DNA of 53,909 bases from Planctomycetaceae bacterium (GTDB lineage: Bacteria; Planctomycetota; Planctomycetia; Pirellulales; Thermoguttaceae), in the NCBI GenBank assembly GCA_031277105.1, contig JAISLW010000285.1:1-53909 (forward strand), given 5' to 3'. Made by a program: the position numbers and the translations under genes. The notes under the pieces are model-generated. The model searched no databases. It saw only the letters and a program-made list of their open reading frames with translations, and was not told the origin of the DNA. Of the stretch, positions 32,149-42,400 are shown one piece after another. Positions within the stretch are counted from its first letter, which is position 1. Every line of letters starts with the position of its first letter.

Positions 32149-32762
32149 GTTTTATTCCTTTAGTAAATTGATGCGAGGTAATTGGTTACCTACGTTTGGA
32201 GTATTGGCAAGTAATGGGGTTAAACTATTGATGCTAAATTTCAGTCAATAAAAAATACAAAAAAACTAGCAAGATAAACCGAAATTCGTATGCAAAAAGT
32301 TTAATACTTCTTTGTCTTTTCGACTAACTTAAAGCCGCCCCCTAAATTTTACTCAAGCAGACGGCGCAATAATAATTATCCGGTTATTCCGCAAAATCCA
32401 AATCGTCCTAATAAACAGAAAAGTTTAATTTATCAGCAAAGTTTTTTTATTTTTGTCAATCAATTTAACAAGAAAACTTTGCCCAAATTACCCAAAATAT
32501 AAATTCAGAATTAAATTAACGCAAAATCAGAATTTAAAGATGAACGCAATTGTCAACGGCTACAAATAAAACAGTTGAATCAAACAAGTACAGCCGAAAC
32601 AAAAACATGTAAGCAAGATTATTACGATCCTTCAATCAGTCCCCACTTGTCCCACCTGTCCCATTTGTCCCTAAAAAATCGTAACCTTTCACGAGATTTT
32701 AGAAGCGTAGAGTTTTAGGGTGTAGGGTGTAGGGTGTAGGGGGTAGATTTATTTTTTTCCGA

Positions 32763-32897: not shown

Positions 32898-34196
32898 TTA
32901 AATTTCTGTTTTCTTATTTATAGTTAGTAGGAACTCTGCCAAGTCGTCTATTTCTTCTTCTGTTCCAGTCCATGGCGGCATTGAGATGATTGGTTTGTTT
33001 AGTAATCTGATTTTATTTTTTAGAAATTTTTTATCATTTTCGCCGGACAATAGCGGTTTTATTGCCGACATACCGCGTTCTAGGGCATGGCAATTATTAC
33101 AATGATACATGAAAATCATACCGCCGCGTTCAATTTTATTCGACGATACTTTTTGCCATTCGGAATCTCTCAAAAAACCTGTCATTCGCAACTCTTCAAT
33201 TTCATCTTTGTAAACTTGACTTCCCAGCACAATTTGATCCACAATCCACGGCTTCCGCGCCGCTTCACGAACAAACTCCGCCGTTGCCAACGCAATTAAA
33301 CCAAATATTAACAACGAAACCGCAAATCCGGCGCTAATTGAACGCGGACGCAAAACAGGACCAAAAAACATCAATAACAACATTATCACACAAGTCCCGA
33401 CAAATATTACAACCAACACGTTTATTAACACCGCCCGCTCCATTGCCCGATGAACACTCTCCGGCAACAAAATAAACGACGCCAATATGCCAATAAACAT
33501 CGTAATAACTCCAAAAATAATCGGAAAAGTCATACGCCGCACTACACGCTCAAGCAACTTGCCATCATCGCCCAACACCCAAGCGGCATGAACAAAAACA
33601 TAAAGCGCCGCCAACAATACGGCGCCGCCGGTACGTGCAAATGTTTGAGGTAAAAATTGAACGTTAAAAAACGCATGCCAAAAATTACCCGTATCACTCC
33701 AATTCGCAAATAAACCCCGCGAATCCAACATAAACGCCGTTATTCCTGTTATCAAAACAAGACTAATCCACGCCGAAATCGCATAAATCACAGATATAAT
33801 AACATGCGTTTTAGGTTTAAGTTGAAACCAGAAATAATACATAATAAACGCCGATACTATCTCTATTACAAAAAATACCCACTCTATCGCCCAACCAAAA
33901 ACAAACGTCCTAATCAACGTCTCCGTCGCAAGCGGCGAAGCAAGCGCAATCGTCCACCATATACCCACGCCCGTTATAGCGCCAAACGCAACCGTTAAAA
34001 GCACAAAAAATTTGGCATGTTTATACCAATAATCACGGTAAGGCTTGTCGTTAGTCTTAACCGCAAAACGATTCTCCAACGCTATCAAAATACCGCCGCC
34101 AACAGCATAATGAGACACAAAAACATGAACCACCGCCACAAACGCTATAAGCATCGGAGCAGTAAGACCCGGAACATACCACCAAGGATAATACAT
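32898..34196 (-). CDS. cytochrome bd oxidase subunit I-like membrane protein fused to C-terminal c-type heme domain
   Basis: Multi-TM N-terminal domain (HVFVSHYAVGGGILIALENRFA..; ITGVGIWWTIALASP); C-terminal MIFMYHCNNCHALERG (CxxCH). Confidence 0.82.
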   Translation of the reverse strand: MYYPWWYVPGLTAPMLIAFVAVVHVFVSHYAVGGGILIALENRFAVKTNDKPYRDYWYKHAKFFVLLTVAFGAITGVGIWWTIALASPLATETLIRTFVFGWAIEWVFFVIEIVSAFIMYYFWFQLKPKTHVIISVIYAISAWISLVLITGITAFMLDSRGLFANWSDTGNFWHAFFNVQFLPQTFARTGGAVLLAALYVFVHAAWVLGDDGKLLERVVRRMTFPIIFGVITMFIGILASFILLPESVHRAMERAVLINVLVVIFVGTCVIMLLLMFFGPVLRPRSISAGFAVSLLIFGLIALATAEFVREAARKPWIVDQIVLGSQVYKDEIEELRMTGFLRDSEWQKVSSNKIERGGMIFMYHCNNCHALERGMSAIKPLLSGENDKKFLKNKIRLLNKPIISMPPWTGTEEEIDDLAEFLLTINKKTEI

Positions 34197-34300
34197 AATT
34201 AAACCTCAATTTGTAAAATGTAATTTGTTAATGTAATTTGTTATTTGGAACTATTCAGCAGCGCCGTTTGAATAGTTATTGTTAATTTTCGTAACAAATA

Positions 34301-34404
34301 TTAAACTGTTCACTCTTGAATTTACGTTTACCGCCGTCAGCCTAACTACCAGACGACAATCTTTGACGCTTTTAAATCACTGAAATTCAAGTACGAGCAA
34401 TATA
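34301..34404 (+). mobile_element. family C element
   Basis: TTAAACTGTTCACTCTTGAA...ATTCAAGTACGAGCAATAT. Confidence 0.82.
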
Positions 34405-34680
34405 GTTTGATAATTTTACGCAGTTCCACAAAAAATGTCCATACGTTTTAGAAAATCAAAAAAATTTGTAACTGGTCACGGAAATTTAAACGAATAGGTA
34501 TCTCTAAAAATTCATTATTGGGAGAACCGATCAATCATTCGATGTTTCTCTAAAATTAAAATTAAATCAATAATGAATTTTTAACGTCCAGTTAAGTTGT
34601 ATTTACATGTTGTCCCCAGCGGGACAGATGGGACAAATATTTATTGTTACAATAAATCTATCCTTTACACCCTATCACCT

Positions 34681-34784
34681 ATACTGCTCATACTTGAAAT
34701 TCAGCGATTTAAAAGCGTCAAAGCCTGCCGTCCGAAAGCTAGGCAGGCGAAGGTAAACGCAAACTCAAGTACGAATAGTTTAAA
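34681..34784 (-). mobile_element. family C element
   Basis: ATACTGCTCATACTTGAAATTCAGCG...CTCAAGTACGAATAGTTTAA. Confidence 0.88.
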
Positions 34785-34899
34785 ACTCTATCATTCTAAA
34801 ATTTCGTGAACGATTACCTATTTTTAACATTTAAAATCTAAAAGCCGAAATTTATTTTTTGTAATTTATTTATTTGAGTAGAGGTACAAAAAAATAAAA

Positions 34900-34977
34900 T
34901 CTTAACGAAATCTTAATCAAAACTTAATCAAATATTAATACAATCTTAATAATTTCTTAATATTTTTTTATTATAAT
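34900..34977 (+). promoter_or_regulatory. 11-bp-periodic TCTTAAT heptamer array plus -10 (Pho-box-like operator/promoter)
   Basis: Heptamers start at 34900, 34911, 34922, 34933, 34944, 34955; TATAAT at 34972-34977. Confidence 0.6.
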
Positions 34978-34997
34978 TCCGCCTGTGCAAACGAATC

Positions 34998-35243
34998 GGG
35001 CATCTCTAAAAATTCATTTTTGTGTAAAAAGGTAGGCGGTGTTTTGCCGCTGTGTTTATTTTTTGTGCCGTAATGGAGTTTATGCTATCAGTAAATTTTA
35101 ATAATTCATGAAGCCTAAAATATGTCTTTTTTAGACGTGCGAAGTATTAAAGTTTTTGATGTCGTAAACCGTAATACGGCGTTTCGGCACAGTGTTTAAT
35201 TTTTTTAACCGCCTACCTAGACAAATGTATTTTTAGAGACGCC
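34998..35243. mobile_element. MITE-like element, family D, longest copy (~246 bp)
   Basis: TIR GGGCATCTCTAAAAATTCATTT / inverted GGGCGTCTCTAAAAATACATTTGT; internal inverted GTAGGCGG arms. Confidence 0.75.
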
Positions 35244-35422
35244 CGATAGATTTTAGAGATTAGTGAATTAGGCGATAGATTTATTGTTACAATAAATTGT
35301 TATAATAAATTGTCCCATTTGTCCCTCATGTCCCACTTGTCCCTCAAAAAAATTGCCAATACGTAATTTTACTAAACGGATTTTCGCGAGGGGTTACAAA
35401 AAATTTAATTAGGAGTTTAAAA

Positions 35423-36355
35423 ATGATTTTACGAATGAATTTTGGAAAATGTTTGTTTATATTATTTGTTACGATAATATATTTTGTTTTATTAGGTTTG
35501 GCGGAATTATTTTCTTTAGCGGAAGAAAATGAAGCCGTAACTTTGCCGCAGTTTTCAGCAATGCCGGTATTGAGTCGTTTGAACGTCGCTCATCGTGGGG
35601 CGTCGTTTCTTGCGCCGGAGAATACGCTTATGGCTTATCGGATTGCTATTTCAGCCGGAGCGGACGGCGCCGAATGCGACGTTTACAAAACAGCCGACAA
35701 CATACTCGTCTTGTCGCACGATAAATCAACCAATCGAACAGCAAACGGAAAAAAACACGATATTACAAAAACTACATTCGACGAACTACGAAAACTTGAC
35801 GTAGGAATCTGGAAAGGTAAACAATTCAAAAACGAAAAAATACCAACTCTGGACGAATATCTTGAACTATTAAAAGAAACAAAATGTTCGCCCGTCGTTG
35901 AAATTAAAATGAACCAAATCGAAAAAGAAGTAATCGAAACGATACGAAAACAAGACATGATTTCTGTTACAATAATTATTGCGTTTTCGGAACAGGTTGT
36001 TAAAAACGTGCGCCGTTTAGAACCGAATATCTGCGTCGCATGGCTTTACAGCGAAAATCTAAAAAACAAAGGCGGAGCAGAAAATAACGCTGACAGACTG
36101 GCTGAATTTCTATTGAAAAAAAGCGCCGAACTAAACGCAAACATATTAGACTTAAACCATGAAATTCTTTCGCAAAAATTAGTAACAAAATTAAAAAATT
36201 CAGGAATACATGTCTGGTGCTGGACTGTCAACGACGTTGAACGAATGAAAATTTTATTAGATTGGGGAGTAGAAAGCATCACAACAGACCGACCCGAATT
36301 ATTAAACGAATTACTAAAAAAATATAAGCCAATTCACACAATTGATATAGATTGA
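35423..36355 (+). CDS. glycerophosphodiester phosphodiesterase family protein (exported)
   Basis: AGGAG RBS; NVAHRGASFLAPENTLMAYRIAISAGADGAECDVYKTADNILVLSHDKSTNRT; VWCWTVNDVERMKILLDWGVESITTDRPE. Confidence 0.95.
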   Translation: MILRMNFGKCLFILFVTIIYFVLLGLAELFSLAEENEAVTLPQFSAMPVLSRLNVAHRGASFLAPENTLMAYRIAISAGADGAECDVYKTADNILVLSHDKSTNRTANGKKHDITKTTFDELRKLDVGIWKGKQFKNEKIPTLDEYLELLKETKCSPVVEIKMNQIEKEVIETIRKQDMISVTIIIAFSEQVVKNVRRLEPNICVAWLYSENLKNKGGAENNADRLAEFLLKKSAELNANILDLNHEILSQKLVTKLKNSGIHVWCWTVNDVERMKILLDWGVESITTDRPELLNELLKKYKPIHTIDID

Positions 36356-36462
36356 TATACGTATCGTACTTGAAATTCAGCGAATTAAAAATACGAACAG
36401 TTTAAGAACAGAATTTTTGTAACAAAAAAATTTGTCCCACTTGTCCTATTGTCCCTAAAAAA

Positions 36463-36530
36463 ATCTTTCTAATCTGTGTAATCCGTGGATCGCTTTTTTG
36501 TCCACAGATTACACAGATTAAAAGGATTGA
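36463..36530. repeat. family F core (AATCTGTGTAATCCGTGGATC / palindrome)
   Basis: AATCTTTCTAATCTGTGTAATCCGTGGATCGCTTTTTTGTCCACAGATTACACAGATTAAAAGGATT. Confidence 0.85.
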
Positions 36531-36642
36531 GAAGGAACGCAGTCGAAATGGTTGCGATCCTTCTTAATAAATCAATGAATTTCAAATACGACCAGTATAT
36601 GAAATTAAAATTAAATCAATCTGGTCAGGTATTATCTGGCGT

Positions 36643-37671
36643 TTATCCGGTTGCTTTATTATTTTTGCAGATGGTTGAATAAATTCTTTCAAATTCGTTA
36701 TGATTTGCGAATGAGATAATTAATTTACCGTTTCCTTTGTCGCTTTTTTGTAGTAATTTTATTTTTACTCCGCCGAGTTGTTTTTTTAATTCTTCTTCTA
36801 ATTGTATTATCTGTTCGCTTTGTTTTGATATTTTTCGTTTATTGCCTTCTTGGTCAATAATTTTCCACCCTTCGTTTTCCGTAATATTATCAATATTATC
36901 ATTTCCGGTATCATTTACGGAGTCAATTAGTTCGCGTACAAATCTTTCTGTTTCACGAACACTCCATGATTCAGTTTTGATTCTGTTTCCGATTTCGACT
37001 TGTTCAAATTTTTCTAGCGCTAACAGCGCGCGGGCGTGTCCCATTGTCAACTCGCCTTTGCGAACACTTTCTTGCACTTCGTTATCTAGTTCTAACAGTC
37101 TTACTAAATTTGTTACCGTTGATCTATCTAGTTCTAATCTTTTCGCTAACTCATCATGCGTGCCGCCGTATGATTCTAGATATTGTGCGAAAGCGATTGC
37201 TTTTTCGATAGCGTTTAAGTCTTTTCGTTGCACGTTTTCTGTTATTGCAAGTTCTATCATCGTGCGGTCGTCTGCTTCCAAACAATGCACCGGCAGTTCT
37301 TGCCAACCTAAACGCATTGCCGCCCGATAGCGCCGCTCTCCCGCAATAATTTGAAACCGTTCCGTATCGCCTGCCATGATGCGGCGGACAACTACAGGTT
37401 GCAATAAACCATGCGTCTGCAAACTGCCCGCTAATTGCTCAATTTCCGATTCGTCAAATTCACGACGCGGTTGAAATGGATTCGGTTCAATTAACAAAAT
37501 ATCAATTGAATCCGGTCTCTGATTTGCGAGATGTTGTTGTAGAAGCCAATCTGAATCGGCGTTCTGCGGCATATCGCCGCCGTTGATCTCGTCTAATTGG
37601 TTCTGTTCGACGCCGCCGACTTTACCGAGCAGCGCTTCCAAACCACGCCCTAAACGTTTTTCTTTAGCCAC
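36643..37671 (-). CDS. parB: chromosome partitioning protein ParB
   Basis: KRLGRGLEALLG; LLIEPNPFQPRREFDESEIEQLAGSLQTHGLLQPVVVRR; IIAGERRYRAAMRLGWQELPV. Confidence 0.97.
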   Translation of the reverse strand: MAKEKRLGRGLEALLGKVGGVEQNQLDEINGGDMPQNADSDWLLQQHLANQRPDSIDILLIEPNPFQPRREFDESEIEQLAGSLQTHGLLQPVVVRRIMAGDTERFQIIAGERRYRAAMRLGWQELPVHCLEADDRTMIELAITENVQRKDLNAIEKAIAFAQYLESYGGTHDELAKRLELDRSTVTNLVRLLELDNEVQESVRKGELTMGHARALLALEKFEQVEIGNRIKTESWSVRETERFVRELIDSVNDTGNDNIDNITENEGWKIIDQEGNKRKISKQSEQIIQLEEELKKQLGGVKIKLLQKSDKGNGKLIISFANHNEFERIYSTICKNNKATG

Positions 37672-38410: not shown

Positions 38411-38610
38411 AATATGCGGATTGTTACAATTTCTAAAATCTATGTCAAGATCAATTTTGTAAACGCTCCTTCGCAACAATTCAGGTTTTTGAAAAACAAG
38501 TAAGATATGAGGGACAAATGGGACACGAGGGACAAGTGCGACAAATTTAATTTACAATTTTGAAATTAAAATCTTTTGATACTGCATTCCGTATTCCGAA
38601 TTAAAAGCGA

Positions 38611-42141: not shown

Positions 42142-42400
42142 ATAACCGATCACGGAAATTTTGTTTATTAAATTACGTTTTGGCAATTTTTGAGGGACAA
42201 GTGAGACATGAGGGACAAAAGGGACATGAGAGACAAGAGGGACAAGAGGGACAAGAGGGACAATTTTTTTATTACAAAAAACTTTTTCTCTAAATCGCAA
42301 ATGCTAATTTTAAAAACTATCCCATATCCCATATTCCCTATCCTCTATTCCATCCATCCGAACCGCTAAACCTACCGCTTAAATTTTTGATGGCGGTTAC
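42142..42400. mobile_element. family E copy containing a 10-bp tandem GGGACAAGAG tract
   Basis: ATAACCGATCACGGAAATTTTG...TTAAATTTTTGATGGCGGTTAC. Confidence 0.68.
42188..42262. repeat. 10-bp tandem repeat (GAGGGACAAG-type)
   Basis: gagggacaagtgagacatgagggacaaaagggacatgagagacaagagggacaagagggacaagagggacaa. Confidence 0.9.

Follow-up and report, generated by a model that had tools for sequence, protein, structure and literature searches.

A probable Pho-box operator array in an uncultured planctomycete genus and its occurrence ahead of a glycerophosphodiester phosphodiesterase gene

The array and its surroundings

The window (the whole stretch of 53,909 nucleotides that was analysed) contains, between two divergently oriented genes, an array of short direct repeats followed by a -10 element (Table 1). 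The gene on the minus strand is predicted to encode a cytochrome bd oxidase subunit I-like protein fused to a C-terminal cytochrome c, and the next gene on the plus strand encodes a glycerophosphodiester phosphodiesterase (GDPD), the identity proposed for it in an earlier note on this DNA being supported by a family match. Direct reading of the window gives six heptamers repeated every 11 bp, with starts from 34900 to 34955, and a TATAAT hexamer 10 bp further on, exactly at the coordinates reported in the earlier note; Tandem Repeats Finder recovered the same heptamer array as 34893-34961, with a period of 11 and 6.3 copies. A consensus scan detected no separate -35 element, and the sole weak sigma-70-like -35 match overlaps bases of the array itself, in agreement with the earlier observation that an obvious -35 is absent. 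No known RNA families were found in the interval 34100-36700.

Repeats of other kinds are also present. One dispersed repeat, about 105 bp long, occurs twice upstream of the array and at many other intergenic sites, in both orientations and with 80-98% identity, and short tandem arrays with a 9-bp unit (TTGTCCCNC / GAGGGACAA) lie close to the beginnings and ends of genes in the window.

Table 1. Features of the window around the heptamer array
Feature	Position	Strand	Basis or remark
9-bp-unit array	32642-32671
Cytochrome bd oxidase subunit I-like protein with C-terminal cytochrome c (CBB3-type)	32898-34196	-	fusion; divergent from GDPD
Dispersed repeat, ~105 bp	34301-34405
Dispersed repeat, ~105 bp	34679-34783
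Promoter segment with ~93% identity to that of the C415 DUF1559 operon	34785-35060	+	BLASTN, 93% over 285 bp; alignment
Unit 1, TCTTAAC	34900-34906	+	direct reading; aligned with 58 other arrays
Unit 2, TCTTAAT	34911-34917	+	direct reading
Unit 3, ACTTAAT	34922-34928	+	direct reading
Unit 4, TATTAAT (weakest; TCTTAAT in the C415 copy)	34933-34939	+	reading, alignment
Unit 5, TCTTAAT	34944-34950	+	direct reading
Unit 6, TCTTAAT (promoter-proximal)	34955-34961	+	CTTAA invariant at this unit across 59 arrays
-10 element, TATAAT	34972-34977	+	10 bp downstream of unit 6
Dispersed repeat element; terminal inverted repeats of 25 bp (92%)	34995-35247		related copies at other loci
Terminator-like hairpin and T-rich stretch, in leader	35035-35051	+	consensus scan
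9-bp-unit array	35311-35346
GDPD, 310 aa, hydrophobic N-terminus	35423-36355	+	PF03009, E = 4e-43
9-bp-unit array	36432-36455
9-bp-unit array	38509-38546
9-bp-unit array	42192-42263

Pattern searches of the genome, on which all genome-wide statements are based, showed that the arrays are few and well delimited. The two-unit pattern TCTTAAYN4TCTTAAY has 23 matches in 5.19 Mb, 23 of 23 within eight arrays, against one match for the reversed pattern and 0.3 expected in a first-order Markov sequence of equal size, or 1.3 when the Markov sequence was modelled on the most AT-rich fifth of the window. Exact three-unit YTTAAY arrays (20 matches) are confined to the same eight loci. These counts rule out a chance AT-rich repeat, and the random occurrence in AT-rich repeats across the genome that the earlier note had allowed for is not what is seen.

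Arrays in the genome and in the genus

The eight arrays lie on contigs C3, C172, C238, C307 (the window), C318, C415, C542 and C552. On C172 and C552 the contig ends before any gene. The C238 array stands ahead of the single pst operon of the genome, as in most congeners, and is followed by genes for a PstC-PstA fusion, which scores above cut-off with TIGR02138 as well as with TIGR00974, and for PstB and PhoU. The array on C542 precedes a DUF1559 protein, a small lipoprotein and a purple acid phosphatase-like protein, that on C318 two DUF1559 proteins, a lipoprotein and a metallophosphatase, while those on C415 and C3 are followed by DUF1559 operons.

Exact three-unit arrays were found in 15 of 21 congeneric genomes, the genome of the window included, and in none of 19 genomes sampled from the order outside this genus. 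A comparison was made of 59 arrays from the neighbourhoods fetched in array-bearing genomes, leaving out five weaker AT-rich three-unit matches without a -10 element (L094, L097, L103, L120 and L121). These arrays have three to seven units each, and their unit matrix reads T-C-T-T-A-A-Y. In 57 of the 59 the best -10 element follows at a distance of 9 or 10 bp, and 54 have a -10 match of at least 5/6 at this gap, versus 5% of shuffles.

For 45 arrays the first long open reading frame of the fetched stretch on the same strand was classified by similarity and family search, some members being assigned via a close scanned relative. These first genes encode PstCA (13), PstS (2), metallophosphatases (5), GDPD (1), DUF1559 proteins (21), a PHP-domain protein (1), a Calx-beta protein (1) and a DUF5690 membrane protein (1). 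The 13 arrays of the first class precede a pstCA-pstB-phoU-pstS operon, and the DUF5690 gene is followed by a PhnX-PhnW fusion for the breakdown of 2-aminoethylphosphonate (L074:474-3852, minus strand, array upstream). Enrichment at phosphate genes, which the earlier note had proposed as a check, is thus clear: the arrays occur at the pst operon, pstS, phosphatases and a phosphonate operon. Among 16 closely related pstCA loci only two (L153 and L164) have no array.

The largest downstream group, 21 of 45, is formed by DUF1559 (PF07596), pilin-like secreted proteins of Planctomycetes. This family has 124 matches in the present genome, so that its share of first genes expected by chance is about 3%, assuming an estimated count of some 4,000 genes. 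Recurrent array operons (L031, L034, L035, L036 and their congeners) combine a DUF1559 pilin-like protein with a small secreted lipoprotein (no Pfam match in the two tested) and often a phosphatase; in several DUF1559 operons a metallophosphatase, a protein of the endonuclease/exonuclease/phosphatase family or a PHP protein is encoded further downstream.

Three more distant lineages keep the array ahead of pst with weaker units and an equal gap. In L171 (UBA8133), where PstCA is 61% identical, the box lies between a kinase-like gene and pstCA and consists of TCTTAAC, TCTTAAC, GCCTAAT and GCATAAC, followed after ten bases by TACAAT. In L169 four units, the third of them weak, are located ahead of pstS with TATAAA ten bases on, and L176, apparently one contig with that in genome G006, carries a weaker version of the box. 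With the TCTTAAY matrix no convincing box was found ahead of pstCA in Phycisphaerae, Lentisphaerae, Chlorobi and others, where pstCA may follow pstS and the relevant promoter is perhaps elsewhere. Across the order the pattern search returned background-level matches in nearly all genomes outside the genus. One genome of another family (G072) contains five identical copies of TCTTAACTGTTTCTTAAC (L284, L287, L289, L291 and L292), of which four lie no more than about 220 bases from a contig start, suggesting a repeated element and not a regulon.

A putative regulator and comparison with known Pho boxes

The presence of arrays coincides with that of the pst system and of a PhoB-type regulator. PstCA of the genus type (65-80% identity) is encoded in 15 of 15 array-bearing genomes, while five of the six genomes without arrays have no PstCA and the sixth (G006) has a divergent one (52-53%). 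A strong Trans_reg_C match (E below 1e-19) was found in 14 of the 15 and, among the six, in G006 only, the other five having either no match (two) or weak ones (three). Fisher tests give p = 0.0003 for pstCA with arrays and p = 0.0017 for Trans_reg_C with arrays, values which are only indicative because the genomes are related and incomplete. Five congeners (G002, G003, G010, G011 and G016), most of them with smaller assemblies (2.9-4.0 Mb), have neither arrays nor this pstCA nor the PhoB-type regulator, which suggests that the whole phosphate-starvation system was lost.

In the genome of the window (86% completeness) one OmpR/PhoB-family protein was detectable, with Response_reg and Trans_reg_C domains (contig C508, L122:937-1728). 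Its best NCBIfam model is PhoB, with 202.8 bits against an equivalog cut-off of 296.2, and its winged-helix DNA-binding domain aligns with that of E. coli PhoB (1gxp). A kinase gene is not adjacent to it in this genome; the regulator gene of two congeners is followed by one for a HAMP-PAS kinase, and a PhoR-like kinase with 58% identity to the congener protein is encoded on contig C227 (from 4106 onward), its best NCBIfam matches being PnpS, WalK and PhoR, all under the equivalog cut-offs. The gene just upstream of pstCA in L171 encodes a protein resembling this kinase in N-terminus and length. No array was found near the regulator gene or its congener counterparts, and autoregulation through such a box was therefore rejected.

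A Pho box is composed of two or more direct-repeat units of 11 nt (PMC4415409); in E. coli it is located 10 bp from the -10 element, and the cyanobacterial SphR box has at least three repeats with the consensus CTTAACCT (PMC1906773). The arrays described here have this repeat pitch, a -10 element at the corresponding distance without a -35, a placement at genes of phosphate acquisition, and, encoded in the same genome, candidates for the PhoB-type regulator and the PhoR-type kinase. They resemble the E. coli PhoB box in their 7-bp direct repeats at an 11-bp pitch, in the replacement of the -35 and in the 10 bp to the -10 (PMC1906773, PMC4415409), but they do not conform to its CTGTCAT consensus, having TCTTAAY in three to seven units instead. 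The recognition helix HIRRLRKAL of E. coli PhoB reads HLASLRNKL in the regulator, with two arginines replaced (DRTIDVHLASLRNKL versus DRTVDVHIRRLRKAL), which might plausibly account for the differing consensus. With the SphR box they have in common the CTTAAC/T core, at least three tandem units and the 11-bp pitch, and the Synechocystis pstS2 site CTTAATTCtatCTTAATTTcgaCTTAATCA is nearly identical to them (PMC1906773); they differ from it in the bases past CTTAAY, which are A-rich here, in phylum and in the presence of up to seven units. The complex PhoP operators of Streptomyces likewise contain varying numbers of 11-bp direct-repeat units (PMC4415409), although with a GTTCACC consensus, whereas the units here are regular and uninterrupted. 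No report of a Pho box in Planctomycetota was found in the open-access literature searched.

Proposed operator function, the GDPD gene and the DUF1559 operons

The array is best explained as a Pho-box operator-promoter of the phosphate-starvation type, to which we assign a probability of roughly 0.9. The Pho-type operator suggested in the earlier note is thereby strongly supported, by the phosphate-gene placement and the co-occurrence with pstCA and PhoB, that is, by the array family rather than by GDPD, the gene that had prompted the suggestion. Under phosphate limitation the PhoR-like kinase would phosphorylate the OmpR/PhoB-family regulator, which might then bind positions 34900-34961 head to tail, one molecule per 11-bp turn on a single face of the DNA. 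The promoter-proximal protomers would substitute for the missing -35 by contacting region 4 of sigma-70, and RNA polymerase would use the TATAAT at 34972 to produce a leader of about 440 nt followed by GDPD. The pst, phosphatase and DUF1559 operons would likewise be driven by this operator.

Practically no credence can be given to the view that the arrays are AT-rich tandem repeats without function that were spread along with mobile repeats. Dispersed repeats do form a mosaic in this region, and the promoter blocks of the window and of C415 are duplicated with such elements; yet the flanks differ at other arrays, the -10 distance is held at 9-10 bp, and the placement ahead of pst is kept in L171, L169 and L176 despite their weaker units, so that for the array family as a whole this account is already refuted. 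It also seems very improbable that the arrays bind an OmpR-family regulator responding to a signal other than phosphate. Direct repeats of comparable pitch are bound by regulators of this family in general, and the DUF1559 operons, which form the largest target group, have no assigned function, but only a single Trans_reg_C protein was found in this genome, with PhoB as its top NCBIfam model, a similar kinase is encoded beside pst in L171, and the operator is common to the pst operon, pstS, phosphatases and the phosphonate operon.

A weightier alternative, though still an unlikely one, is that the array is a true Pho operator without control over GDPD, a leftover of duplication from which transcription stops in the repeat or yields a short leader RNA. 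GDPD orthologues with 57-75% identity are encoded in most congeners, among them G002 and G011, which have neither pstCA nor arrays nor a PhoB-type regulator, and no array was found upstream of the congener orthologues, at least ten of which showed more than 1 kb of upstream sequence. Conserved placement at GDPD, a supporting rather than a defining feature of a Pho box, is accordingly rejected, and the argument drawn from GDPD in the earlier note is weakened. The promoter block of the window is nearly a copy of that of C415; the C415 promoter also appears to hold an empty site for the dispersed-repeat copy at 34679-34783. The repeat element begins about 10 bp past the expected transcription start, and the hairpin, by which the leader may possibly be attenuated, lies about 60 nt past it, so that read-through into GDPD is uncertain. 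On the other hand, the array retains all six units, one of them degenerate, together with an intact -10; the plus-strand gene that comes next is GDPD, which suits the regulon; and the pst promoter of the same genome has a leader of 328 nt with an inserted repeat, indicating that long leaders are common here. Control of GDPD by the array is likely, with GDPD as a probable target in this genome, but such regulation would be private to it. The near-identity to the C415 promoter gives the GDPD link the look of a recent promoter capture, and on the simplest interpretation a duplication in this lineage placed a Pho promoter related to that of C415 in front of GDPD, with the copying direction judged from the lack of arrays at the orthologues.

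The arrays very probably mark a real Pho regulon, undescribed in the literature searched, and since the exact two-unit matches in 5.2 Mb all lie in arrays, the genomes of this uncultured genus allow its regulon to be read off directly. DUF1559 has been noted in Rhodopirellula for cold and salt stress (PMC2754498), while phosphate control of the family was not found in the literature searched. Tentatively, the Pho regulator might have recruited a branch of DUF1559 together with the lipoproteins into a surface or secretion apparatus for phosphate starvation that works alongside secreted phosphatases, its promoters spreading to genes such as GDPD via segment duplication among dispersed repeats. 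The GDPD copy may be an instance of promoter transfer to a new gene, and through the arrays a branch of the expanded planctomycete family DUF1559 is tied to phosphate starvation, a link that can be tested.
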